This document shows, piece after piece, positions 8,061 to 49,407 of a stretch of DNA of 64,000 bases; positions within the stretch are counted from its first letter, which is position 1, and each line of letters opens with the position of its first letter. The DNA is from Streptomyces caelestis (lineage in GTDB: Bacteria; Actinomycetota; Actinomycetes; Streptomycetales; Streptomycetaceae): assembly GCF_001279005.1 (NCBI RefSeq), contig NZ_LGCN01000132.1:1-64000 (forward strand), written 5' to 3'. The translations under genes were made by a program, and so were the position numbers. Under the pieces are notes generated by a model. The model did not search any database, was not told where the DNA came from, and was given only the letters and a program-made list of their open reading frames with translations.

Positions 8061-8660
8061 ATGGGTATGCCGATCACACCTGCCACCGCGACGAACAGCC
8101 CGTCGAGCGGCGCCGCCGAGCCGATTTTGCTGGAACTGGTCGACGAGGACGGCGTGACGATCGGCACCGCGGAGAAGCTCGCCGCCCACCAGCCGCCGGG
8201 GCGGCTGCACCGGGCGTTCTCGGTGTTCCTGTTCGACGAGCGCGGGCGGCTGCTGATCCAGCAGCGGGCGCTGGGCAAGTACCACTCCCCCGGCGTGTGG
8301 TCCAACACCTGCTGCGGCCACCCCTACCCCGGTGAGGCGCCGTTCGCGGCGGCGGCCCGGCGCACCTTCGAGGAGCTGGGCGTGTCCCCGTCGCTGCTCG
8401 CCGAGGCCGGCACGGTCCGTTACAACCACCCGGACCCGGCCTCGGGCCTGGTGGAGCAGGAGTACAACCACCTCTTCGTCGGCATGGTGCAGTCGCCGCC
8501 GCGACCGGATCCGCAGGAGGTGGCGTCCACGGCGTTCGTGACCCCGGCGGAGCTGGCGGAGCGGCACGCCGAGGACGCCTTCTCGGCCTGGTTCCCGACC
8601 GTCCTGGACGCGGCCCGCCCGGCGGTCCGCGAACTGACGGGCCCCTCGGCGGGCTGGTGA
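8061..8660 (+). CDS. idi: isopentenyl-diphosphate delta-isomerase, type I
   Basis: A 199-residue Nudix-fold enzyme that interconverts IPP and DMAPP for isoprenoid synthesis. LHRAFSVFLFDERGRLL and SPGVWSNTCCGHPYPGE match the type I signature, with the catalytic Cys in NTCCGHP and metal-binding His residues around it. AAARRTFEELGV is the modified Nudix box and LVEQEYNHLFVG carries the catalytic Glu. ATG 8061 and ATG 8067 are both possible starts. The neighbours are not isoprenoid genes. Confidence 0.95.
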   Translation: MGMPITPATATNSPSSGAAEPILLELVDEDGVTIGTAEKLAAHQPPGRLHRAFSVFLFDERGRLLIQQRALGKYHSPGVWSNTCCGHPYPGEAPFAAAARRTFEELGVSPSLLAEAGTVRYNHPDPASGLVEQEYNHLFVGMVQSPPRPDPQEVASTAFVTPAELAERHAEDAFSAWFPTVLDAARPAVRELTGPSAGW

Positions 8661-8673
8661 ACCGGGAGACCGG

Positions 8674-9135
8674 CTAGGGGATCCACGAGGGCTTGAGCGG
8701 CAGGACGGCCCGGATCACCTTGCCGCCGGCGGCGGTGTGCTCGACGTCGCACGCTCCGCCCGCCTCGCGGGTGATCTCCCGCACCAGGAGCAGTCCGCGG
8801 CCGCCGGTGCGGCCGTGGTCGGTCTCCAGGGCGGTGGGCCGGTAGGGGTGGTCGTCCTCCACGGACACCCGGACCCACTCGGCGCCGACGGCGACCTCGA
8901 CGGCGAGCGTCGGGGACAGCAGCGCCGCGTGCCGCACGGCGTTGGTGACCAGCTCGGAGACGATCAGCAGCAGTCCCTGCACGACCTCGTCCGCGACCGG
9001 TACGCCCTGGCGCAGCAGCAGGTCCCGCACGGCGTGGCGGGCCTGCGGGACCGAGGCGTCGACGGCCGGGGCGGTGAACCGCCAGACACCTTCGTACGGC
9101 AGCGGATCGCCGCTCTCACGCTCGATTGTCACCAC
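8674..9135 (-). CDS. ATP-binding anti-sigma-factor-type regulator (GHKL/RsbW-like)
   Basis: A 153-residue protein with the compact HATPase_c_2 fold. The N-box is VSELVTNAVRHAA, the G1 box VSVEDDHPYRP and the G2 box GRTGGRGLLLVREI. Streptomyces encode dozens of these single-domain kinases; some bind sigma factors of the SigB/SigF class, while most are uncharacterised. No sigma factor or anti-anti-sigma gene is adjacent. The start is GTG 9135 or GTG 9132. It ends 13 nt from the convergent idi gene. Confidence 0.85.
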   Translation of the reverse strand: MVTIERESGDPLPYEGVWRFTAPAVDASVPQARHAVRDLLLRQGVPVADEVVQGLLLIVSELVTNAVRHAALLSPTLAVEVAVGAEWVRVSVEDDHPYRPTALETDHGRTGGRGLLLVREITREAGGACDVEHTAAGGKVIRAVLPLKPSWIP

Positions 9136-9273
9136 ACGTCGAGTGTTGGCACCGCTCGGCTCCCCGCCTCGACCCTGAACAGAAGTCAGCGGATATCGAG
9201 CGTTTCCGACCGCCCGTGCACGACCAGGCCCCTCGTGTGACCGTTCCGGTCCGCCCCGTGCCGGATCGGCGAA

Positions 9274-36194: not shown

Positions 36195-37169
36195 GTGTCG
36201 CTCGCTTCTCCCCATCTCGGCAGCCCTTCGGTCTGGACCGACGCCCGGCTGTTGTACGCACTGGAGGAAGTGGTCGAGAAGGAGCTCAACCGGCACCTGA
36301 AGGTCACCAAGGACTGGATGCCGCACGAGTACGTGCCGTGGAGCGACGGCCGCAACTTCCCCGGCTTCTTCGAGGACGGCGAGGCCTGGGACAAGGAGCA
36401 GTCGAAGGTCACCGAGGTCGGCCGGATCGCCCTGGTGGTGAACCTGCTGACCGAGGACAACCTCCCCAGCTACCACCACGAGATCGCCACGTTGTTCGGC
36501 CGGGAGGGCGCCTGGGGCACCTGGGTGCACCGCTGGACGGCCGAGGAGGGCCGGCACGGCATCGTGATGCGGGACTACCTGCTCGCCTCGCGGGCGGTGG
36601 ACCCGGACAAGCTGGAACAGTTCCGCATGTCGCACATGAGCGAGGGCTTCGAGTCGGACAACCGGCACTCGATGCTCCACTCGATCGCCTACGTCGCCTT
36701 CCAGGAGCTGGCCACCCGCATCTCGCACCGCAACACCGGCCACCAGTCCGGCGACCCGGTCTGCGACCGCATGCTGGCCCGCATCGCGACCGACGAGAAC
36801 CTGCACATGGTCTTCTACCGCAACCTGCTCAAGTCGGCGTTCGAGCTGGCTCCGGACCTCACGATGCAGGCGGTGCGCGATGTCGTGGTGAACTTCCGGA
36901 TGCCCGGCCACGGCATCCCCGGGTTCGAGCGGGCGGCCGCGCAGATGGCCATCGGCGAGGTCTACAACCTGCGCATCCACCACGACGACGTGCTCCAGCC
37001 GGTGCTCCGCTTCCTGAAGGTCATGGAGATCGACGGGCTGGGGCCCGAGGGCCTCAAGGCCCAGGAGGAACTGGGCCTGTTCATGGGGGGCCTGGACGCG
37101 GAGGCCGCGAAGTTCGACGAGAAGCTGGCGACCCGCAAGGCCAGGATGGCGGCCCGCGCCGGCCACTGA
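36195..37169 (+). CDS. acyl-[acyl-carrier-protein] desaturase (soluble, di-iron)
   Basis: A 324-residue ferritin-like desaturase. Iron ligands lie in WTAEEGRHGIVMRDYL (E-E-x2-H) and ATDENLHMVFYRN (D-E-N-x-H), with NLPSYHHEIATLFG supplying the earlier Glu. HEYVPWSDGRNFP is a family signature. It introduces a cis double bond into acyl-ACP using a ferredoxin. GTG 36195 has CTGGAG upstream. Expression is probably set by the three-unit operator just upstream, to control membrane fluidity. The 3' flank is the 7-bp VNTR. Confidence 0.93.
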   Translation: MSLASPHLGSPSVWTDARLLYALEEVVEKELNRHLKVTKDWMPHEYVPWSDGRNFPGFFEDGEAWDKEQSKVTEVGRIALVVNLLTEDNLPSYHHEIATLFGREGAWGTWVHRWTAEEGRHGIVMRDYLLASRAVDPDKLEQFRMSHMSEGFESDNRHSMLHSIAYVAFQELATRISHRNTGHQSGDPVCDRMLARIATDENLHMVFYRNLLKSAFELAPDLTMQAVRDVVVNFRMPGHGIPGFERAAAQMAIGEVYNLRIHHDDVLQPVLRFLKVMEIDGLGPEGLKAQEELGLFMGGLDAEAAKFDEKLATRKARMAARAGH

Positions 37170-37376: not shown

Positions 37377-37622
37377 CTACCGTCCGGTGCGCCGCAGTTC
37401 CAGGCGTTCCTTCTCCGACATGCCGCCCCAGACGCCGAAGCGCATGTCGTTGGTCAGGGCGTACTCGAGGCAGGCGGCCCGGATCGGGCAGAGACCGCAG
37501 ATGCGCTTGGCCTCACGGACCGAGCTGCCGGGCTCGGGGAAGAAGAAGTCTCCCCCCGTCTGCGCGCACAACGCCTCCTCCTGCCAGGCGAGGTCGGGCG
37601 ACGGGATCGTTTCGGTGTGCAT
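37377..37622 (-). CDS. wblH: WhiB-like [4Fe-4S] transcription factor
   Basis: An 81-residue Wbl protein. Four Cys ligands are C19 (WQEEALCAQTGG), C42, C45 and C51 (ICGLCPIRAAC), followed by the turn GVWGGMSEKERLELRR and a basic end. Wbl proteins bind the housekeeping sigma factor and DNA and respond to redox or NO. ATG 37622 is used; upstream sequence gives no better start. The symbol is from remembered synteny with SCO6715. The tandem 7-bp repeat abuts its 3' end. Confidence 0.85.
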   Translation of the reverse strand: MHTETIPSPDLAWQEEALCAQTGGDFFFPEPGSSVREAKRICGLCPIRAACLEYALTNDMRFGVWGGMSEKERLELRRTGR

Positions 37623-37752
37623 GACCGAGAGCGTGCCGTGCGGCGAAAAACGTCCGATCAACGCGGGATCAACGCAGGGCCCTCCGGGCCTTCCGTGACC
37701 GCATGATGATGATGCAGGGGCGCCCGGCGCGCACGGCGGCGCGCCGGGCGCG

Positions 37753-37926
37753 TCAGGTCCCGCGCGGATCACCCCTGAGGACGGCGAACCGCGCGCCGTA
37801 CGGGCCCTCCATGCGGGCCGGCCGGCCGACGCCGGCGACGGAGGCGGCGGGCATCCGCACCCCGCCGCCCGGTTCGACGGCCCCGGCGACGGCGGTGTCC
37901 GTGTCGTCCACCCCGAAGTGGAGTGC
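37753..37926 (-). pseudogene. C-terminal fragment of a VOC/glyoxalase family protein
   Basis: The leftward frame reads LHFGVDDTDTAVAGAVEPGG, then VRMPAASVAGVGRPARM and GPYGARFAVLRGDP, matching the last betaalphabetabetabeta half of a VOC-fold protein (normally HFxVDDTDAAVA...GG.....DPQGA.F.V). The N-terminal half is absent. The breakpoint at 37923-37941 coincides with a 19-nt match to the dispersed repeat. No start codon or RBS is evident. The remaining 37623-38038 region contains no other gene. Confidence 0.65.
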
Positions 37927-37941
37927 CCCCTCCGGGGAGGC
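37923..37941 (-). repeat. dispersed palindromic element, fragment D
   Basis: Read leftward, these 19 nt (GCCTCCCCGGAGGGGGCAC) are identical to the beginning of copy A at 13791. They lie exactly where homology to the VOC protein is lost. Confidence 0.55.
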
Positions 37942-38038
37942 GCCCCGTGAGCCTCGGGCCGTGCACATGCCCTCCGGCCCACCTCGACGCGGCGCGCTCC
38001 GCACACGCGGGGCCGTGCTGCACCGCCCCCGGCCGGCT

Positions 38039-39079
38039 CTAGGCGGACGCCCGTCGGATCAGGGTCGTCGGGAAGATCACGGCGGACGGGGTGCCACCGG
38101 CGTTCCCGTCGGACGCGGTGGTGCCGTCCAGGTCGCGCAGGAGGAGGCGGGCCATCAGCCGGCCCATCTCCTCGATGTCCTGGCGGACCGTGGTGAGCGG
38201 CGGTTCGGTCTGTTCGGCGATCGGCAGCATGTCGTCGAAGCCGACGACCGCCACGTCGTCCGGCACCCGCCGTCCGTGCTCGCGCAGCACGCGCAGGGCG
38301 CCCGCCGCCATGAGGTCGTTGCCGGCGAACACCGCGTCCAGGTCCGGGCAGCGGTCGAGGAGCCTCCGCATCGCCCGCTCGCCCCCGGCCGGGGTGAAGT
38401 CGCCCTCCACGACCAGGCGCGGATCGGCGTCGGCCATGACGTCCCGGAAGCCGTCGAGCCGGTCCACCGCCGCGGTCTGGTCGAGGGCGCCGGTGATGTG
38501 GGCGACACGGCTGCGGCCGAGGCCGAGCAGGTGCCGTACGGCGTCACGGGCGCCGCCCCGGTTGTCGCTGTCGACGTAGACGGCGCCGCGCCGGCCGCCG
38601 CTCCCGTCGGGCCGGCCGCCGTACACCGTCGGCAGACCGGCCCGCTGGATCAGTTCGGGCAGCGGGTCGTCGATGTGGAGGGAGAACACCAGCGCGCCGT
38701 CGACATGGCCGCCGGCCAGGTAGCGGCCGACGCGGGCGTGGTCGTCGCGGTCCTCGGTGAGCAGCAGCACGAGCTGGTTGTCGTGGGCCGTCAGTTCCTT
38801 GCTGATGCCGCGCAGCTGCCGGGCGAAGAAGGGATCGGCGAAGACCCGGGTCTCCGGTTCGGCCACGACGACGGCGACGGCGTCGTGGCGCTTGGTCACC
38901 AGGCTGCGGGCGGCCTGGTTCGGCACGTAGCCGAGTTCCTCCACCGCCCGCCTCACCCGCTCGGCCAGGCGTTCCCGCACCCCGTCGGAGCCGTTGACCA
39001 CGCGGGAGACCGTGGCCCGGGAGACCCCGGCCCGCGCGGCCACGGCCTCCAGCGTGGGGCGCGGCGCTGTGTCGGTCAC
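38039..39079 (-). CDS. LacI family transcriptional regulator
   Basis: A 346-residue LacI/GalR regulator. The HTH is PTLEAVAARAGVSRATVSRV followed by the hinge VPNQAARSLVTKR. The periplasmic-binding-protein-like core follows (ADPFFARQLRGISKEL; TAVDRLDGFRDVM; VFAGNDLMAAGALR; VVGFDDMLPIAEQTEPPLTT). GTG 39079 has GAGGAG upstream. A CGAGAGCGCTCTCG palindrome 56 bp upstream is a classical LacI-type operator and implies autoregulation. A sugar or glycoside effector is likely; the nearby laccase and ThuA/DUF1080 genes are plausible targets. Confidence 0.92.
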   Translation of the reverse strand: MTDTAPRPTLEAVAARAGVSRATVSRVVNGSDGVRERLAERVRRAVEELGYVPNQAARSLVTKRHDAVAVVVAEPETRVFADPFFARQLRGISKELTAHDNQLVLLLTEDRDDHARVGRYLAGGHVDGALVFSLHIDDPLPELIQRAGLPTVYGGRPDGSGGRRGAVYVDSDNRGGARDAVRHLLGLGRSRVAHITGALDQTAAVDRLDGFRDVMADADPRLVVEGDFTPAGGERAMRRLLDRCPDLDAVFAGNDLMAAGALRVLREHGRRVPDDVAVVGFDDMLPIAEQTEPPLTTVRQDIEEMGRLMARLLLRDLDGTTASDGNAGGTPSAVIFPTTLIRRASA

Positions 39080-39134
39080 TTCGGGGCTCCTCACCTGCGG
39101 CTGCGGGAAAGGATAGCCCCGGCCCGGCCACGGG

Positions 39135-39148
39135 CGAGAGCGCTCTCG
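39135..39148. promoter_or_regulatory. LacI-type operator CGAGAGCGCTCTCG
   Basis: A 14-bp perfect palindrome with the central GAGCGCTC typical of Streptomyces LacI regulators (compare CebR sites). It lies between the laccase stop and the LacI start, in the LacI promoter region. Confidence 0.75.
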
Positions 39149-39164
39149 GATCACGTCCGGCGCG

Positions 39165-40151
39165 TCAGTGTCCGTGCTCGTGGCCCTCCCCGGCGGCCGT
39201 CCCGTGGGCGTGCTCGTGCGGGTCGTAGCCCGGGATGGTGCCGTCCGGTTTCTTCACCAGGAACAGGCCGACCATGCCCATGTCCGAGTGGCTCTGGACG
39301 TGGCAGTGGTACATCCAGGCGCCCGCCCCGACGCCCTCCCCCGCGATGATCTGGAAGCCGAAGGAGTCGGCCGGGCCGCAGATCTTGTTGTCGATGACCT
39401 GACTGGGGTCGTCGGGTCCGGTGAGCATGCCGGTGCGGTTGTCGGCCCAGCGGTGACCGTGCATATGGAACGTGTGATAGTACTCGCCGTGCGTGATCAT
39501 GACGATCTCGACGCGGTCGCCCACGGTGGCCTCGAAGTTCGGCCCGGTGTGCGCCGGCTTGTTGTTGATCGACATGTCGTTGAAGACGATGGTGTGGGTC
39601 GCGTCGGGCAGGACGTCGCCCTTGCGGCGCACGATCACCGGGCCGTACAGCCCGCCCCGGATGCCGCCGGTGCCGTGCGCCGTGCCGACGACGTGGTCGT
39701 GGTAGTGCCAGTAGCCCGCGCTGCCCGCCCGCCAGGTGCCGTCGGAGCGCCGGCCTGGCTTGTGGGTGCGCCAGGTGTAGGTGCGGGTGCCGCCGGGCTC
39801 GACGTCGCTCCTGTTCTGCCTGGTGCCGTCGCTGGAGATCTCGTAGTCCAGTCCGTGGACGTGCAGGCTCACGGGCACGTCCATGGTGTTCTCGAACTCG
39901 ACGTGCAGGGTGTCGCCCTCGTTGAGCTCGATCAGCGGGCCGGGGACGGTCGCCTTGCCCTTCTCGAAGCCGTAGCCCATCTGCCCGCCGGCCAGCCGCT
40001 CGGCGTACATCTTGACGCGCCGCACCTCGCCCCCGGCGGGCGCGGTCTTCGCCGGTGCGGTCGCGCTCACGGCCTCGGGCGCGACGGACAACGATGTCGC
40101 GACGGCAGCGCCGCCCAGCAGTACCCGCCGGTTGAAACCGCGTCTGTCCAT
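39165..40151 (-). CDS. two-domain small laccase (SLAC), Tat-exported multicopper oxidase
   Basis: A 328-residue protein that starts [20 protein letters not shown], a twin-arginine signal. Copper-ligand motifs are [33 protein letters not shown] and the trinuclear/T1 motif [14 protein letters not shown]. Length and order match the two-domain SLAC/EpoA laccases, which work as trimers and oxidise phenols with reduction of O2 to water. The C-terminus is His-rich. From memory, its S. coelicolor counterpart is SCO6712. It lies divergent from the ThuA/PQQ gene across about 175 bp. Confidence 0.95.
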
Positions 40152-40325
40152 GCCGAACTCCCCATCTGGCTGTCATGAACCTGTGAAACCGTAGCGGCCA
40201 CTCCTTCGTTTATCCACACTCAGGACAAAGTTCGTTTCATTGCTGCGATAGGTATTGGCGTATGGCGCAAAGGGGTCTAGCTTCCTTGACGCTGTTGCTG
40301 CGACCGAGGAGGGGTGGGTGGCCAC

Positions 40326-42872
40326 GTGCGGTCCACATCGCATCACGAACCCATGCGCTTACGAGGATTGAGCACGAGAAGCACGACGGGCACACGAAGG
40401 GCGAGAACGAGACGGCGCCTCTGGGCGGCCACCGTGACCGCCGGCGCCGTCACCGCCGGACTGCTGTCGGGTCCCGCCGCCAGCGCGCGCCCGGCCCCGG
40501 AACCGTCCCTGACAACGATGTCCATCACGTCGCCCCCGGGCGGCGCGAACGTACGGGTGCTGCTGTTCCACGGCTCCGCGGCCGGCGGTGAGGAGTCGCC
40601 CCTGGTGAACGCCGGGATCGCGGCGATCGAGAGGATCGGTCTGTCCGGCCCGGAGAACCAGCGGTTCCAGGTCACGGCCACCGGCAACGCCTCGGTCTTC
40701 ACCAACGCCGACAGGCTGAGCCGGTTCAACGCCATCGTGTTCCTGACCGGCGGCGGTGACGTCCTCGACCCGGACCAGGAGGCGGGCCTGGAGGCGTACA
40801 TGGAGGCCGGCGGCGGCTTCGTCGGCCTGCACGACGCGGCCCGCGCGGAGCCGTACTCGGACTGGTTCACCGGTCTGATCGGCGCCCGTCCGGCCGCGTC
40901 GAGCCCCACCACGGTGCAGCGGGCGACCGTCGAGGTCGGCGACCGCGCGCATCCGGCGACCAAGAACCTGCCCACCCAGTGGAAGCGGCCCGACAAGTGG
41001 CTGAACTGGGTGAAGAACCCCTCCGGCGACGTGCACACGGTCGCCCGGGTCCGCGAGTCGACCTACGCGCCCGGTGCGAGCGCCAACGGCTGGGACCACC
41101 CGGTCAGCTGGTGCCGCGACTACGACGGCGGCCGGTCCTTCTACACCGGCATGGGCGGCACGGTCTCGTCGTACGACGAGACCGACTTCCGCGACCATCT
41201 GCGCGGCGCCCTGTTGTGGACCACCCGGCTGGTGCGGGCCGACTGCAAGGCGACCATCACCGGCAACTACAAGGCCGAGCGGCTGACCCGGCCCAACCAG
41301 CCGGGCCACAACGACCAGATCGGCGAGCCGCACGGACTGGTCACCGCGCCCGACGGCCGCGTCTTCTTCATCGGCCGGGGCGGCGCCGACGCCTCGCGGC
41401 CCGTCGTCACGGACTGGAACGACCCCGACATCGGCAAGGGCACGGGCGAGATCCACGTCTACGACCCGAGGACCGGGAAGGTCACCCTCGCCGGGGCGCT
41501 CACCGTCTTCGGCAACAAGGGCGGCGGCGACGAGTTGCGGAAGGTCGAGGAGGGCCTGCTCGGCATCGAACTGGACCCGGCGTTCGAGCGGAACGGGTGG
41601 GTGTATCTGCACTACACCCCGCACTCCGGAATCAACCGGGACACGCACATGGCCGAGCGGCGGGTCTCCCGCTTCACGCTCGACCACGCCACCGACACGC
41701 TGGACCCCGCCAGCGAGAAGGTGCTGCTGAAGTGGCCGGTGCAGATCCACAGCTGCTGCCACGCCGGCGGCGGGATGGCCTGGGACTCCGAGGGCAACCT
41801 GTACATCGCCACCGGTGACAACAACTCCAGCGGTTTCAGCGACGGTTACTCGGGCAACAACCCCCAGCCCAACTTCAAGGGCGTGTCCTTCGCCGACGCC
41901 CGCCGCACCGCCGGCAACACCAACAACCTCAACGGCAAGATCCTGCGCATCCACCCCGAGCCGGACGGCACGTACACCCTCCCCGAGGGCAACCTGTTCA
42001 CCGGGAAGGAGACCGCCGAGGGCGGCGGCAAGACGCGCGGCGAGATCTACGTGATGGGTGTGCGCAACCCGGCGCGCATCTCCGTGGACAAAAAGACCGA
42101 CGTCCTCTACGCGGGCTGGGTCGGCCCGGACGCCGGCGCCCCGTCGACGACGTGGGGTCCGGCGAAGTACGACACGTTCGCCGTGATCACCGAGGCGTCC
42201 AACCGCGGCTGGCCGTACTGCATGGGCAACAAGCAGCCCTACCGGGACCGCAATCTGCCGGACCCGTCGAAGCCGCTCGGCTGGTACGACTGCGACGCCC
42301 CGAAGAACGAGTCGCCGAACAACGACGGTCTGGTCAACCTGCCGCCGGTGACCGGCAACAACATCTGGTACTCGCCGCAGGGCGGCGGTCCGGACTTCCC
42401 GCGCGACGCGAACGGCGTCCCGTCGTACGAGCAGGACGAGGCCACCTACCGGCTGCCCTGGCTCAAGGGCGGCGGCCAGGCCGCGATGAACGGCCCGGTC
42501 TACCGCTACGACGACGCGACGTCCAGTGACGTCCGGTGGCCCGCGTACTGGGACGGCAAGTGGTTCGTCGGTGACTTCTACGACACCGACCAGCCGCGCA
42601 ACGCGGTGCTGATGGACCCGAGGACGCAGGGCGACGGCGGCCTTCCGGTGCACTCGGAGTCCCTGAAGAAGATCGTGCCGGTCGGCAACGACGGCATCAA
42701 GAACCTGATGGGCTGGACGTTCGGTCCGGACGGCGCGCTCTACGTCCTCGACTACGGGCGCGGCTTCTTCACCTCCGACTCCAAGTCCGCGCTGTGGCGG
42801 GTCACCTACACGGGCGGCGGCCCCACCCCGGCCGCCGGCCGGCTGGCGAGGAAGGCCGGAGGAAACCAGTGA
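40326..42872 (+). CDS. secreted ThuA domain + PQQ-dependent sugar dehydrogenase-like protein, TTA codon
   Basis: About 848 residues from GTG 40326 (AGGAGG 13 nt upstream; ATG 40353 gives 839 residues). The Arg-rich n-region and LWAATVTAGAVTAGLLSGPA form a signal peptide. Domain 1 (about residues 70-290) is ThuA-like (VRVLLFHGSAAGGEESPLVN; AYMEAGGGFVGLHDAA; WCRDYDGGRSFYTGMGG). Domain 2 is a beta-propeller of the soluble glucose/sorbosone dehydrogenase type (GEPHGLVTAPDGRVFFIGRG; CCHAGGGMAWDSEGNLYIAT-GD; VMGVRNPARISVD; GWTFGPDGALYVLDYGRG). Codon 12 (40359-40361) is TTA, so translation should depend on bldA tRNA. It overlaps the next gene by GTGA. Confidence 0.88.
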   Translation: MRSTSHHEPMRLRGLSTRSTTGTRRARTRRRLWAATVTAGAVTAGLLSGPAASARPAPEPSLTTMSITSPPGGANVRVLLFHGSAAGGEESPLVNAGIAAIERIGLSGPENQRFQVTATGNASVFTNADRLSRFNAIVFLTGGGDVLDPDQEAGLEAYMEAGGGFVGLHDAARAEPYSDWFTGLIGARPAASSPTTVQRATVEVGDRAHPATKNLPTQWKRPDKWLNWVKNPSGDVHTVARVRESTYAPGASANGWDHPVSWCRDYDGGRSFYTGMGGTVSSYDETDFRDHLRGALLWTTRLVRADCKATITGNYKAERLTRPNQPGHNDQIGEPHGLVTAPDGRVFFIGRGGADASRPVVTDWNDPDIGKGTGEIHVYDPRTGKVTLAGALTVFGNKGGGDELRKVEEGLLGIELDPAFERNGWVYLHYTPHSGINRDTHMAERRVSRFTLDHATDTLDPASEKVLLKWPVQIHSCCHAGGGMAWDSEGNLYIATGDNNSSGFSDGYSGNNPQPNFKGVSFADARRTAGNTNNLNGKILRIHPEPDGTYTLPEGNLFTGKETAEGGGKTRGEIYVMGVRNPARISVDKKTDVLYAGWVGPDAGAPSTTWGPAKYDTFAVITEASNRGWPYCMGNKQPYRDRNLPDPSKPLGWYDCDAPKNESPNNDGLVNLPPVTGNNIWYSPQGGGPDFPRDANGVPSYEQDEATYRLPWLKGGGQAAMNGPVYRYDDATSSDVRWPAYWDGKWFVGDFYDTDQPRNAVLMDPRTQGDGGLPVHSESLKKIVPVGNDGIKNLMGWTFGPDGALYVLDYGRGFFTSDSKSALWRVTYTGGGPTPAAGRLARKAGGNQ

Positions 42873-45079
42873 CACGACAACGAAGAGTGTGGGCCGGCCT
42901 GCTGGCCGCCCTGCTGATGGTGCTCGGCCTGCAGACGACGACGTCCGCGGCCGGCGCGTCCGGATCCACGGCGGCCGGGGCGGCGGAGCAGGTGCTCACC
43001 TGGACCGCCGGCGACGGCATCACGGAGTACACCTCCGCGCCGACGACCGCGGTGGCCGGCACGGCGACGATCGTCTTCGAGAACAGCGCGGCCACCGGCA
43101 ACACCACCGGGATGCCGCACACGCTGACGTTCGTGACCTCCGACCCGGAGTTCAACGACGACGTCCAGCTGAACATCCTCGCCAACCCGGCCGACGCCCA
43201 GGGCGGCCGGCACACCGCCGAGGTGACGCTCACCCCGGGCCGCTACTTCTACCACTGCACCATCCCCGGCCACGGCGAGATGCAGGGCATCCTGACGGTG
43301 ACCGAGGGCAGTGGCGAGGACACCACGGCGCCCGAGGCCACGGCGAAGGTGACCGGCTCGCAGAACGGCAAGGGCGAGTACGTCGGTTCGGCGAGCGTGA
43401 CGGTCCGGGCCACCGACTCCGGTTCGGGCGTGGACCGGATCGAGTACGCGATCGGGGCCGACGGCGCCTGGCAGCCGTACACCGCCCCGGTCGTCGTCGA
43501 CCAGGTCGGCGCCCACACGGTGCGCTACCGCGCGCTGGACAAGGCGGGCAACGTCTCGGCGGAGCAGAGCGTCACGTTCACGGTCGTCGCACCGCCGACG
43601 GACGACTCGACCCCGCCGGAGACCTCCGCGACGGTGGACGGCGAGAAGAACGGCGACGGGGCCTACATCGACATGGCGACGGTGACCGTCACCGCGTCCG
43701 ACACCGGCTCCGGCGTCAACACCATCGAGTACGCGATCGGCGCCGGCGGCGCCTGGAGGGCCTACACCGGCCCGGTGATGGTGCACGAGGTCGGCACGCA
43801 CACCGTGCGCTACCGCGCCACCGACAAGGCGGGCAACACGGCCGCGGAGAAGAGCGTGGAGTTCACGGTCGTCTCCGCTCCCCCGCAGGACACCACCCCG
43901 CCCGTGACCGGCGTGACGCTCGGCGGCGTCAGGAACTCCGACGGCGCCTACGTCGGCAGGGCCACGGTGACGGTCGGCGCCAGCGACGGGCACGACGGCT
44001 CCGGCGTGGCCGCCGTCGAGTACTCGCTCGACGGCGGACCGTACCTGGCCTACACCGCGCCCGTGGTGGTCGACCGTGCGGGCCGGCACACCGTGGCCTA
44101 CCGGGCGAGCGACGAGGCGGGCAACACCTCCGAGCCGCTGACGGTGAGCTTCACGGTCGTCGCGGGCGGCGGGGTGCCCTCGCCCGACTGCCCCGAGTAC
44201 GACGAGCGGCGGACGGTGATCGTCGGCACGGTCGACTCGGGTGTGCCGAACCGGGTCACCGACAACCGGTGCCGCATCGGTGAGCTGATCGAGGACGAGA
44301 AGGAGTGGACCTCGCAGGCGCTGTTCCTGAAGCACGTCGGGGCCGTTCTGGACCGGCTGAGGAAGGAAGGGGTCATCGACAAGCGGGAGCGTCGGGCCGT
44401 CAACCGGGCGGCCCGCGAGTCCGGCATCGGCACGCCGGGCCAGACCGACGGCTACCGGACGATCCTCGACGGCACCGAGGCCTCGTTCGCGAAGTGGGAG
44501 CAGGTGGGCGGCGGTTCGTTCGCGCTGAACCCGGACGGGTCGATCACCTCCGGCACCACGAGGAGCGGGCTCGGCATGCTGTGGTTCCCCGAGCGCACGT
44601 ACGGCGACTTCTCGCTGAAGCTCCAGTGGCGTGACGACGCGCCGGGCGCCGGCAACGCCAACTCCGGTGTGTTCGTGCGGTTCCCGCAGATCCACGACCA
44701 TCCGGAGGAGCCCCGGCCGGAGTGGGCCGCCATCACGTTCGGGCACGAGATCCAGGTGTTCGACTCGCCCACCGGCGACATGTACAAGACGGGCTCGGTC
44801 TACGGCTTCGACCGGGTGGGCCTGGCCGGCGCGGGCGTGACGCAGAAGGGCGCCTGGAACGACTACGAGATCCGCGTGGTGGACCAGCACTACTCGGTCC
44901 ACCGCAACGGCGTGCTGATCAACGAGTTCGACAACACCGGCGGCCAGGACTTCAGCCCGCCGCGCTCGGACGACCCGGGCACGGACGGGCGGCGGTACGC
45001 CTCCGGCTACATCGGACTGCAGGTGCACGGCACGACGGACGTCGTCTCCTACCGGGACGTCCGGATCAGGGAGCTGTAG
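42869..45079 (+). CDS. secreted cupredoxin + three OmpL47-type Ig-like repeats + DUF1080 (3-keto-glycoside hydrolase-like)
   Basis: A 736-residue exported modular protein. After a signal peptide (to about residue 28), residues 40-145 are a cupredoxin with complete type 1 copper ligands His84 (GMPHTLTF), Cys130 (YFYHCTIPG), His135 and Met138 (GHGEMQG). Three Ig-like repeats of about 95 residues follow, each with the pattern SGV..IEYA.G.G.W..YT.PV and HTVRYRA.DKAGN. A linker leads to a C-terminal DUF1080 laminin-G-like domain (FSLKLQWRDDAPGAGNANSG; HEIQVFDSPTGDMYKTGSVY; YIGLQVHG), a fold shown in other bacteria to hydrolyse 3-keto-disaccharides. It is coupled to the preceding gene by a 4-nt overlap. 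Confidence 0.88.
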   Translation: MTRQRRVWAGLLAALLMVLGLQTTTSAAGASGSTAAGAAEQVLTWTAGDGITEYTSAPTTAVAGTATIVFENSAATGNTTGMPHTLTFVTSDPEFNDDVQLNILANPADAQGGRHTAEVTLTPGRYFYHCTIPGHGEMQGILTVTEGSGEDTTAPEATAKVTGSQNGKGEYVGSASVTVRATDSGSGVDRIEYAIGADGAWQPYTAPVVVDQVGAHTVRYRALDKAGNVSAEQSVTFTVVAPPTDDSTPPETSATVDGEKNGDGAYIDMATVTVTASDTGSGVNTIEYAIGAGGAWRAYTGPVMVHEVGTHTVRYRATDKAGNTAAEKSVEFTVVSAPPQDTTPPVTGVTLGGVRNSDGAYVGRATVTVGASDGHDGSGVAAVEYSLDGGPYLAYTAPVVVDRAGRHTVAYRASDEAGNTSEPLTVSFTVVAGGGVPSPDCPEYDERRTVIVGTVDSGVPNRVTDNRCRIGELIEDEKEWTSQALFLKHVGAVLDRLRKEGVIDKRERRAVNRAARESGIGTPGQTDGYRTILDGTEASFAKWEQVGGGSFALNPDGSITSGTTRSGLGMLWFPERTYGDFSLKLQWRDDAPGAGNANSGVFVRFPQIHDHPEEPRPEWAAITFGHEIQVFDSPTGDMYKTGSVYGFDRVGLAGAGVTQKGAWNDYEIRVVDQHYSVHRNGVLINEFDNTGGQDFSPPRSDDPGTDGRRYASGYIGLQVHGTTDVVSYRDVRIREL

Positions 45080-45100
45080 CCCTCACGGGTCGGTCCTCAC

Positions 45101-46559: not shown

Positions 46560-47024
46560 TCAGCGCGGGGCGGCCGGGGAGGGGGCCGGATCGCGCAGCC
46601 CTTCGGCCGCGTCCGCCACCCGCCGGATCAGGTCGATGAAGAGCGCCTGCTCGTCGGCGTCGAGCGGGGCCAGGAAGACCTGGTTCATCCGCGCGGTGCG
46701 CACCGTCAGCCTGCGGTGGGTGCGCACGCCGTCGTCGGTGAGGCGCAGCAGGAAGCGGCGGCCGTCCTGGGGGTCGCGGACCTTGTCCAGCAGCCCGCGC
46801 CGGATGAGCCGGCCGATCACCTCGGCGATGGTGGACCGGTCCAGCCCGACCCGCTCCCCCACGGTGCGCTGGTCCAGGCCCGGCTCGGCGACCAGCGCGT
46901 TGAGGACCGCGAACTGCGGCGAGGTGATCTCCTCGGAGACCATCGTGTTCCACAGCAGGTGGTGCGCCTGCTGGAGTCGCCGGGCGAGGTGCCCGGGGTG
47001 GGTGGTGAGGTCCACCGCGGCCAT
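46560..47024 (-). CDS. pcaV: MarR family repressor of the protocatechuate operon (PcaV)
   Basis: A 154-residue MarR protein divergent from pcaI. The winged HTH spans LDQRTVGERVGLDRSTIAEV and IGRLIRRGLLDKVRDPQDGR-R. With ATG 47024 as start, Arg15 and His21 fall where the S. coelicolor PcaV structure, as I recall it, has ligand-binding Arg15 and His21, which supports both function and start. It represses the pca operon until protocatechuate binds. The last residues are Pro/Ala-rich. Confidence 0.9.
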   Translation of the reverse strand: MAAVDLTTHPGHLARRLQQAHHLLWNTMVSEEITSPQFAVLNALVAEPGLDQRTVGERVGLDRSTIAEVIGRLIRRGLLDKVRDPQDGRRFLLRLTDDGVRTHRRLTVRTARMNQVFLAPLDADEQALFIDLIRRVADAAEGLRDPAPSPAAPR

Positions 47025-47051
47025 GTGCGCTCCCCAGTCGTTTTCGTTGGT

Positions 47052-47184
47052 GCACTGAACAATACTCGCCGAACGCACCTCCCCCGTACCCCCCCATGCC
47101 GTTCGATACGAACATGAGCAGGGTATTGACGCTCCCACCCCCTCGATGGCAGCGTGTGGCCGACCTCGAGAAAATACTCAGTGC
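47052..47184. promoter_or_regulatory. divergent pcaV-pcaI control region with paired TCAGTGC motifs
   Basis: GCACTGAACAATACTC (47052-47067) and AAAATACTCAGTGC (47171-47184) carry the same TCAGTGC core in opposite orientation, one near each divergent start, consistent with two PcaV operators. GTTCG-ATA-CGAAC (47101-47113) is a further palindrome between them. TTGACG at 47126-47131 may be the pcaI -35, but the matching -10 is poor. Confidence 0.6.
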
Positions 47185-47231: not shown

Positions 47232-47987
47232 ATGGACAAGGTGGTCGCCTCGGCTGCGGAGGCGGTGGCTGACGTGCCGGACGGCGCGTCACTGGCGGTG
47301 GGCGGCTTCGGCCTCAGCGGTGTGCCGAACGTGCTGATCCAGGCGCTGTACGAGCGGGGGGCCGACGGTCTGTCGGTCGTCTCGAACAACTGCGGGGCGA
47401 TGGAGTCCGGGCTCGCGGTGCTGCTGGCGGCGGGCCGGATCGCCCGGGTGACCGGCTCCTACATCGGCGCGAACAAGGAGTTCGCCCGGCAGTACCTGAC
47501 CGGTGAGCTGGAGGTGGAGCTGATCCCGCAGGGCACGCTCGCCGAGCGGCTGCGCGCCGGGGGCGCCGGCATCCCGGCGTTCTACACCCCGGCCGGGGTG
47601 GGCACACAGGTCGCCGAGGGCGGACTGCCCTGGCGTTACGACGGCTCCGGCGGGGTGGCGCTCGCCTCGCCCGCGAAGGAGGTCCGGGAGTTCAACGGCA
47701 CCCGGTACGTGCTGGAGCGCGGCATCCGCACCGACTACGCGCTGGTGCGGGCGGCGAGGGGCGACCGGCACGGCAACCTCGTGTTCAACAAGTCCGCCCG
47801 CAACTTCAACCCCCTCGCCGCGATGGCGGGCCGGGTGACGGTCGCGGAGGTGGAGGAGCTGGTCGAGCCCGGCGCGCTCGACCCGGACGCGGTGCACCTG
47901 CCGGGCGTCTTCGTGCAGCGGGTGGTCGCCCTCACGCCCGAGCAGGCGGCGGACAAGAGGATCGAGCGGCGGACGGTGAGCGGCTGA
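47232..47987 (+). CDS. pcaI: 3-oxoadipate CoA-transferase, alpha subunit
   Basis: A 251-residue subunit A of the succinyl-CoA:3-ketoacid CoA-transferase family. It starts [36 protein letters not shown] is the subunit A signature, and GTYxGxN-like [18 protein letters not shown] and [15 protein letters not shown] follow. It activates 3-oxoadipate with succinyl-CoA in the beta-ketoadipate pathway. First structural gene of the operon; its stop overlaps pcaJ by one nucleotide (TGATG). Confidence 0.95.
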
Positions 47988-48631
47988 TGGCCTGGACACG
48001 GGAGGAGATGGCCGCGCGGGCGGCCCGGGAACTGCGCGACGGCCAGTACGTCAATCTCGGCATCGGCCTGCCCACGCTGATCCCCAACCACCTCCCGGCC
48101 GGTGTCGAGGTGGTGCTGGAGAGCGAGAACGGCATCCTGGGCACCGGCCCGTACCCCGCCGAGACGGAGGTCGACCCGGACCTGATCAACGCCGGGAAGG
48201 AGACCGTCACGGTCCTTCCGGGCGCCTCCTTCTTCGACTCGGCGCTGTCCTTCTCGATGATCCGCGGCGGGCACATCGACGTCGCCGTCCTCGGCGCGAT
48301 GCAGGTGTCCGGACGCGGTGACCTGGCCAACTGGGCGGTGCCCGGCAAGCTCATCACCGGCATCGGCGGAGCGATGGACCTGGTCCACGGCGCCCGCACG
48401 GTGATCGTGGTGATGACCCACACCGCGAAGGACGGCTCGCCGAAGATCGTGACGGAGTGCTCGCTGCCGCTGACCGGCAGGGAGTGCGTGGACCGGATCA
48501 TCAGCGACCTCGGCGTCCTCGACGTCACCGACGACGGACTCGTCCTCGTCGAAACCGCTCCCGGCGTGACCGCCGGGGAGATCACCGCCAAGACCGGAGC
48601 CGAACTCACCCTCGGGGAGGGCCTGTCGTGA
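47987..48631 (+). CDS. pcaJ: 3-oxoadipate CoA-transferase, beta subunit
   Basis: A 214-residue subunit [20 protein letters not shown], then [14 protein letters not shown] with the catalytic Glu that forms the CoA thioester, and [20 protein letters not shown]. It pairs with PcaI. Its end overlaps pcaH by GTGA, so pcaF, which I recall lying here in S. coelicolor, is absent. Confidence 0.95.
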
Positions 48632-49407
48632 CCGACGCACTCACTCAAGCCGACATCGACCGGGAGATCGCGGCCGAGCACGCCGCGTACGGGAAGCGGG
48701 TCGCCGACGGCGCGCCCGTCGAGCACCACCCGCGCCGCGACTACCCGCCGTACCGCCCCTCGGTGCTGCGCCACCCGAAGCGGCCGCCGATCGCCATCGA
48801 CGTCACCCAGGACCCGGAACTGGTGGAGCTGTCCTCCCCCGCGTTCGGGGAGCGGGACATCACCGAGATCGACAACGACCTCACCCGGCAGCACGCCGGT
48901 GAGCCGATCGGCGAGCGCATCACCGTCTCCGGACGGCTGCTGGACCGCGACGGACGGCCGGTGCGCGGCCAGCTGGTGGAGATCTGGCAGGCCAACTCGG
49001 CCGGCCGGTACGCCCACCAGCGCGAACAGCACGACGCCCCGCTGGACCCGAACTTCACCGGCGTGGGCCGCACCCTCAGCGACGACGACGGCTTCTACCG
49101 CTTCACCACCGTCCAGCCGGGCCCGTACCCCTGGCGGCAGCACCTCAACGCCTGGCGGCCCGCCCACATCCACTTCTCGGTCTTCGGCTCGGCGTTCGCC
49201 CAGCGGCTGGTGACGCAGATGTACTTCCCCGGCGATCCGCTCTTCCCCTACGACCCGATCATCCAGTCGGTGACGGACGACGCCGCCCGGCAGCGGCTGG
49301 TCGCGACGTACGACCACGACCTGTCGGTGCCGGAGTTCTCGATGGGCTACCACTGGGACATCGTGCTCGACGGACCGCGGGCCACCTGGATGGAAGAGGG
49401 GCGCTGA
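48628..49407 (+). CDS. pcaH: protocatechuate 3,4-dioxygenase, beta subunit
   Basis: A 259-residue iron-binding subunit. [10 protein letters not shown] and [21 protein letters not shown] contain the start of the intradiol dioxygenase domain. Fe(III) ligands are in [15 protein letters not shown] (Tyr), and [12 protein letters not shown] with [11 protein letters not shown] (His, His, Tyr). It cleaves protocatechuate to 3-carboxymuconate with PcaG. GTG 48628 overlaps the pcaJ stop. Confidence 0.95.

Follow-up and report, generated by a model that had tools for sequence, protein, structure and literature searches.

A small laccase of Streptomyces caelestis and its two coupled partners: a conserved module with a plausible role in glycan oxidation

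What do the small laccases of actinomycetes do, and which proteins could supply their electrons? Small laccases have drawn wide interest as biocatalysts. What two-domain multicopper oxidases do has been called poorly understood (PMC13151041). The question is raised by a stretch of 64,000 nucleotides from Streptomyces caelestis (assembly GCF_001279005.1, contig NZ_LGCN01000132.1, positions 1 to 64,000; hereafter the window), in which the base composition is ∼73% guanine plus cytosine and whose proteins have their closest relatives in Streptomyces. Here a small laccase gene lies divergent to two coupled genes, one for a protein with ThuA and glucose/sorbosone dehydrogenase-like (GSDH) domains and one for a cupredoxin protein that ends in a 3-keto-disaccharide hydrolase domain (DUF1080). 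An earlier note on this DNA had proposed that the dehydrogenase oxidizes a glycoside, that electrons pass through the cupredoxin to the laccase and O2, and that DUF1080 cleaves the resulting keto-sugar. Our analysis indicates that the three genes form a real, conserved module, and that the proposed mechanism is plausible.

A small laccase and its two coupled partners

The laccase has two cupredoxin domains, matches the Pfam families Cu-oxidase_2 and Cu-oxidase_3, and is close to solved two-domain laccases in the PDB (E-values down to 4.5e-205). Its translation, read by eye, contains the copper motifs HxH, HxH, HxxHxH and HCHxxxHxxxM, and its N-terminus reads as a twin-arginine translocation (Tat) signal. 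It is therefore an ordinary member of the group that includes SLAC of S. coelicolor (SCO6712; PDB 3cg8, with 5lhl also close), and what is new at this locus is the set of partners rather than the enzyme. The two partner proteins are likewise predicted to be secreted, as judged from their N-termini. A gap of 162 bases separates the laccase gene from the divergent ThuA-GSDH gene. The GTG start of the cupredoxin/DUF1080 gene overlaps the ThuA-GSDH stop codon (GTGA) and is preceded by GGAGG. Coordinates, domain matches and this overlap thus bear out the layout described earlier, in which a Tat-type laccase is divergent to two coupled genes for secreted proteins.

In the ThuA-GSDH protein, Pfam assigns residues 81–303 to ThuA (2e-59) and residues 409–638 to GSDH (4.7e-23). 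Judged from sequence scores, the domain matches at this locus exceed chance, with the poorest E-value for the cupredoxin, which is backed also by its ligand set. The His-Cys-His-Met ligands are invariant in 18/18 aligned cupredoxins, including that of the window, which identifies a type 1 cupredoxin and agrees with the intact copper site noted earlier. The best-scoring solved relatives of this domain are auracyanin A and plastocyanin. Three OmpL47/Ig-like domains follow it. A plasmid search with the whole cupredoxin/DUF1080 protein matched 20 records, one of them (S. fungicidicus) over the full length.

The C-terminal domain of the same protein belongs to PF06439, and its predicted model (pLDDT 85) has the lectin-like fold of 3-keto-glycoside eliminase/hydratases. 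The first matches of the model are putative glycosyl hydrolases of unknown function. Matches named for a function include the 3-keto-glycoside eliminase/hydratases 9fbe and 8rr2, the 3-keto-2-hydroxy-glucal hydratases 8v31 and 8tda, and BT2157 (3osd), all among the first 14. BT2157, 8rr2, 9fbe and 8tda share fold and family with the domain studied here at about 20% identity, but, unlike them, this domain is fused to a cupredoxin or to a GSDH protein.

Co-occurrence and rearrangement of the three genes

If the three proteins work together, their genes should be inherited together. We examined 150 genomes of the genus (the window's own and 149 others), counting laccases from 410 bits and ThuA-GSDH proteins from 1252 bits; the next matches below scored 251 and 405. 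Among the 149, 93 have a SLAC-type laccase and 91 a cluster-type ThuA-GSDH protein: 90 carry both, three the laccase only (G058, G116, G147) and one ThuA-GSDH only (G073). In all 90 the two genes are divergent and lie within 3 kb of each other. The G073 exception may be an assembly gap, because upstream of its ThuA-GSDH match the 8823-base contig runs on for only ∼250 bases. A relative of the cupredoxin/DUF1080 protein is found in 91/91 genomes with ThuA-GSDH, downstream on the same strand in 90 and on another contig in one (G120). Eleven of these relatives are partial or split matches, and in G037 the cupredoxin/OmpL47 part is present without DUF1080.

The association is specific. A ThuA/GSDH paralogue (E ≤ 0.001) occurs in 24 of the 58 genomes without the cluster, 22 of which have no full laccase, indicating that the laccase is tracked by the cluster-type protein and not by any GSDH. 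One genome counted as having neither gene, G048, holds a partial laccase that abuts a partial DUF1080 (L215 on G048:C83, about 8126–9139; C-terminal parts in both cases), as if a single deletion had taken the middle of the cluster.

The genus data alone cannot separate function from synteny, because the flanking genes are often conserved too. In 80 named Streptomyces loci the three core genes were counted 80, 80 and 79 times, LacI 69, WhiB 67, ADH 58, PcaI 44 and PcaJ 38 times, some loci being cut by contig ends. We therefore turned to a class-wide sample of 246 genomes, 224 of them outside the genus, with cut-offs of 303 bits for the laccase and 785 for ThuA-GSDH (next matches, 81 and 491). 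Outside the genus, 22 genomes have both genes, one (G165) has the laccase only, and none has ThuA-GSDH only. The laccase lies upstream on the same strand in 17 of the 22 and is divergent in five. In a sample of 298 genomes from a further order, a few of which are shared with the class sample, both genes were found in the same 43 genomes and neither occurred alone (E ≤ 1e-60; ThuA-GSDH from 615 bits, next 250; nine of the 43 laccases score only 230–246 bits). The two genes lie within 6 kb in 42 of the 43. In G540 (L224, L225) the laccase and the GSDH/cupredoxin genes are 445 kb apart, and both are retained.

Genomes with both genes fall into six families, as labeled by the classification tool (f1, f17, f19, f28, f37, f57). 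P values from two-by-two tables are tiny, but they ignore phylogeny. A stronger argument comes from rearrangement, which we followed in 20 loci of 3–16 kb from 16 genomes (L110–L129, of which L128 and L129 belong to the window's own genus) and in 20 loci from 19 of the 43 genomes of the further order (L219–L238). In L110–L129 we detected no homologue of LacI, WhiB, ADH, PcaV or PcaIJ at E ≤ 1e-5. The cupredoxin protein shares the cluster with GSDH in 19/19 of the further-order genomes for which loci were fetched. In other families ThuA-GSDH and DUF1080 form one chain of about 1000–1400 residues, mostly joined by a PKD domain and the unnamed domain described below, and the cupredoxin protein carries 2–10 OmpL47 repeats where it is not cut by a contig end. 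Gene order also changes: it is cupredoxin-laccase-GSDH in L236 and L237, and the laccase comes last in L234, L235 and L238. Across the loci DUF1080 is carried by either the cupredoxin or the GSDH protein, and in L236, L237 and L238 by each of them; the domain therefore migrates between the partners.

Regional synteny was rejected as the whole explanation, since flank homologues were not detected in L110–L129 while the core stays. Outside the genus the core thus keeps together with other flanking genes, in altered order and orientation and with DUF1080 on one partner or the other, which indicates that the cluster is a functional module. Lack of co-occurrence, which the earlier note had named as grounds for abandoning its proposal, was not found in the genus, the class or the further order, and co-occurrence and adjacency in six families agree with its view that the genes belong together.

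The unnamed domain of ∼85 residues (CPEYDERRTVIVGTVDSGVPNRV...) deserves separate mention. In many of L110–L127 and L219–L238 both partner proteins carry it toward their C-terminal ends, and in several families cupredoxin and GSDH proteins have it in common. It was not seen in L124 or L125, and it has a single match in the window's own genome. It is possibly a joining or anchoring domain.

The proposed route for electrons and its rivals

We tentatively interpret the three genes as encoding a secreted, copper-dependent, O2-consuming module for glycan processing. The GSDH propeller, held on the glycan by ThuA and, in many members from other families, by an inserted lectin domain, would oxidize a sugar or glycoside. 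The cupredoxin, on an Ig-like arm whose length varies, would take up the electrons and hand them on to the small laccase for the reduction of O2. The 3-keto-disaccharide hydrolase domain would cleave the oxidized glycoside by elimination/hydration. In this scheme we infer the redox reaction, its direction, the cofactor, the position oxidized (C3) and the flow of electrons to the laccase. More speculative is the wider proposal that such an extracellular Gram-positive chain, with pyrroloquinoline quinone (PQQ) or another center at the HSCCH motif of GSDH, enables the DUF1080 cut and might be the physiological task of most small laccases in actinomycetes. The near-perfect co-inheritance names candidate electron donors for the small laccase and gives a testable idea of its purpose. 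If the proposal is true, soil actinomycetes have a further way of breaking down glycans, one that is oxidative and wired by copper.

That the module is aimed at glycans is well supported by sequence and model comparisons, in keeping with the role first suggested for it. Beyond the fold neighbors of DUF1080, Pfam shows that ThuA of L110 is split by an inserted F5/8 type C domain, and at least 120 listed relatives of that protein carry the insert too. ThuA is split in most fused forms and unsplit in L229, L234, L235 and L238. We scanned 20 of the 92 flanking open reading frames of L110–L129, chosen by us. ROK-type regulators stand beside the laccase in five loci (L112, L114, L116, L117, L119), two of which (L114, L116) also have GH3. 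The cupredoxin gene of L112 is followed by one for an AP_endonuc_2 TIM barrel, and a flanking gene of L129 encodes a protein with ThuA, DUF1080 and a ricin lectin domain; the other 11 scanned frames have no evident glycan link. For DUF1080 itself, fitness evidence for a role in lactose use and a proposed route via 3′-ketolactose have been reported, and BT2157 has been named as a 3-ketotrehalose hydrolase (PMC9007349).

A known system that bears on this point is LacABC, the lactose 3-dehydrogenase of Caulobacter crescentus. It resembles the proposed route in oxidizing a glycoside in the periplasm, with DUF1080 encoded nearby (PMC9007349). In place of LacABC, the cluster has ThuA-GSDH, cupredoxin and laccase; a Pfam scan of the three cluster proteins and five neighbors showed no LacABC of the GMC type, the rest of the genome not having been searched for it. 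The fungal AA12 PQQ sugar dehydrogenase is also alike, as a secreted enzyme of six-bladed GSDH fold with a one-electron carrier domain; its carrier, however, is a haem b in the same chain, whereas here a partner protein provides it as a type 1 cupredoxin, and no linkage to laccase or DUF1080 was seen in the description of the fungal enzyme (PMC4133262). The earlier note knew of no description of such a chain, and we found none of a laccase/GSDH/cupredoxin linkage in the titles and abstracts of the open-licence PMC literature.

The AA12 comparison allows the wiring to be read in reverse, with the dehydrogenase and cupredoxin reducing quinones or phenoxy radicals made by the laccase and so preventing repolymerization. 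The same genes would then have the opposite function. Fungal sugar dehydrogenases have reportedly been proposed to do this, AA12 ranks 19 among the fold matches of the low-confidence GSDH model, and a cytochrome domain is part of the enzyme on which AA12 was founded (PMC4133262). This arrangement gives the cupredoxin and DUF1080 no clear role; we judge it very improbable.

Several observations weigh against the electron route from GSDH to laccase. Four genomes (the three of the genus and G165) keep a laccase without a cluster-type GSDH, and solitary laccases lacking either partner occur in L118, L210–L213 and L216, those of L213 and L216 being second laccases; these count against an obligate module. 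The solitary SLAC-type genes belong to G058, G116, G147 and G144:C31 (L210–L213) and to G176:C3 (L216). GSDH enzymes are not known to oxidize C3. The remaining adverse points concern PQQ, which is the weakest step of the mechanism as read from sequence, and are given below together with those on lignin. A different pattern is seen in L114, L116 and L117 (G165), where a gene for a cupredoxin-OmpL47 protein diverges from tandem laccases and neither GSDH nor DUF1080 is encoded nearby; the contig end truncates the cupredoxin gene of L117. Laccase plus cupredoxin without GSDH fits a direct partnership of those two proteins.

GSDH family membership (PF07995) is established by sequence, and a search with the predicted model agrees on a six-bladed fold, although the model is poor (pLDDT 57, pTM 0.69) and unfit for residue mapping. 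Its first Foldseek matches are glucose dehydrogenase 7cdy, HHIP (second), sGDH and aldose sugar dehydrogenases; 3das, the PQQ-bound aldose sugar dehydrogenase of S. coelicolor, is also among the matches. The C-terminal piece of the protein gave only chance matches in the PDB. The catalytic His, the Arg-Asn pair and the Gly-Pro of the Ca/PQQ site are invariant in 16/16 aligned GSDHs, their equivalence being read from HMMER alignments and the known residues of sGDH. CCHxGG also occurs in three paralogues, which lack the preceding His-Ser and an Asp (domain residue 424). HSCCH was therefore rejected as a hallmark of the cluster, its CCH part being common to paralogues.

The basic residues that bind the PQQ carboxylates in sGDH are Lys377, Arg406 and Arg408. 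On our own alignment, the place of Arg408 is Met in 40/40 aligned proteins, and that of Lys377 has no Lys in 37 cluster-type proteins, with a near-invariant Arg a few residues on where the alignment is uncertain; the HMMER alignments stop short of the Lys377 region and cover that of Arg408 at a score below zero. PqqE exceeds the cut-off in 32 of the 150 genus genomes (18/91 with the cluster versus 14/58 others), and the window's own genome has neither PqqE over the cut-off nor PqqB. PQQ biosynthesis was rejected as a co-occurring trait, as it shows no association with the cluster (p 0.68). Should PQQ be the cofactor, most genomes with the cluster would have to scavenge it. The label of PQQ dehydrogenase-like protein holds for the family and the catalytic residues, and is weakened by the seemingly altered carboxylate positions and by the 73/91 cluster genomes without PqqE over the cut-off. 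A fungal AA12 enzyme without several PQQ ligands is still PQQ-dependent (PMC4133262).

The seemingly altered PQQ positions also suit an explanation in which the laccase receives its copper from the cupredoxin, while the GSDH propeller serves as a glycan anchor that binds without being an enzyme. The rank of HHIP in the low-confidence model search fits as well, since this hedgehog-interacting protein is a non-enzyme with the same fold. Regulation was considered through SCO6710, two genes from SCO6712 by number and so probably the S. coelicolor cupredoxin/DUF1080 gene, with SCO6711 as the other partner. SCO6710, called a "glycosyl hydrolase," is reported as putatively CsoR-repressed, and its level was halved in cultures from high-copper spores (PMC6414726). 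It was therefore lower and not higher at high copper, a misfit with simple CsoR control. For CsoR-like operator patterns in the window the matches numbered 27, with 27.4 expected, and 23, with 14.4 expected and as many in 3 of 100 shuffles; none lies between the divergent genes, the nearest being a weak one at 45077–45091, after the cluster. Control by CsoR, an idea taken from SCO6710, thus finds no support here. Moreover, the invariant catalytic residues of GSDH speak for an enzyme, and His-Cys-His-Met is the ligand set of an electron carrier. Copper supply is an improbable account of the locus.

Lignin offers another alternative, a division of labor on plant cell walls in which the laccase acts on lignin phenolics while GSDH, DUF1080 and ThuA act on attached carbohydrate, with no direct electron transfer and with joint inheritance owed to the common lignin-carbohydrate target. 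A SilA mutant loses lignin solubilization, so phenolic substrates remain plausible; from wheat straw, laccase-negative S. ipomoeae frees lignin-containing material at 33 mg/g as opposed to 113 mg/g (PMC5675413). In the genus, pca genes often lie just beyond the cluster, at the PcaI and PcaJ frequencies given above. This division of labor, however, leaves the regular type 1 cupredoxin partner (91/91) unexplained, and L110–L129 contain no pca homologue. In addition, a Cellvibrio two-domain enzyme has been judged unlikely to degrade lignin polymer efficiently, although it belongs to superfamily N and SLAC to K (PMC13151041). On balance we regard the lignin explanation as unlikely.

Control region and neighboring genes

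The region between the divergent genes was compared in 80 close relatives, the window included, and contains two blocks that are mostly at least 90% conserved (Table 1). The hexamers upstream of the ThuA-GSDH gene, assigned by us as −35 and −10 elements, are likely its promoter. An imperfect inverted repeat is a possible regulator site.

Table 1. Features of the laccase locus in the window
Feature	Position	Strand	Remark
LacI-family regulator, adjoins laccase	38039–39154	−	Pfam
Two-domain small laccase (SLAC type), predicted Tat-type signal	39165–40151	−	328 aa
Imperfect inverted repeat TTTATCC-N7-GGACAAA, candidate site	40209–40229	.	in conserved block
ThuA-GSDH putative promoter TTGGCG-N17-TAGCTT	40255–40283	+	both hexamers in conserved blocks
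ThuA + GSDH (glucose/sorbosone dehydrogenase-like propeller) protein, predicted secreted	40314–42872	+	true start somewhere in 40314–40353
HSCCHAGG motif: sGDH-family catalytic His after invariant Cys-Cys	41748–41771	+	invariant 16/16
Cupredoxin, 3 × OmpL47/Ig-like, unnamed domain, DUF1080 protein, predicted secreted	42869–45079	+	translationally coupled
Cupredoxin domain	42986–43309	+	plastocyanin-type Copper-bind, 2.7e-05
Type 1 copper ligands	about 43118 (His), 43256 (Cys), 43271 (His), 43280 (Met)	+	invariant 18/18
Unnamed ∼85-residue domain	44174–44446	+	no Pfam family listed over it
3-keto-disaccharide hydrolase domain (3keto-disac_hyd/DUF1080, PF06439)	44444–45076	+	Pfam 5.1e-31

The adjacent LacI regulator, also pointed out earlier, is a feature of the window and of most named Streptomyces loci, but L219–L238, like L110–L129, have no LacI match. 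LacI therefore appears to lie outside the core beyond the genus, as far as tested, and to be conserved within the genus only. In L213 a close relative of this LacI (628 bits) follows the solitary laccase, suggesting that the regulator may travel with the laccase within the genus.

Other neighbors are shared by many Streptomyces. The start of a protocatechuate (pca) operon, the frequent neighbor of the cluster in this genus, is found at 47232–49407 of the window, with a MarR/PcaV-like regulator beside it at 46560–47138. Upstream of LacI lie an acyl-ACP desaturase and a WhiB-like open reading frame (36195–37169 and 37377–38006), which are syntenic in many Streptomyces.

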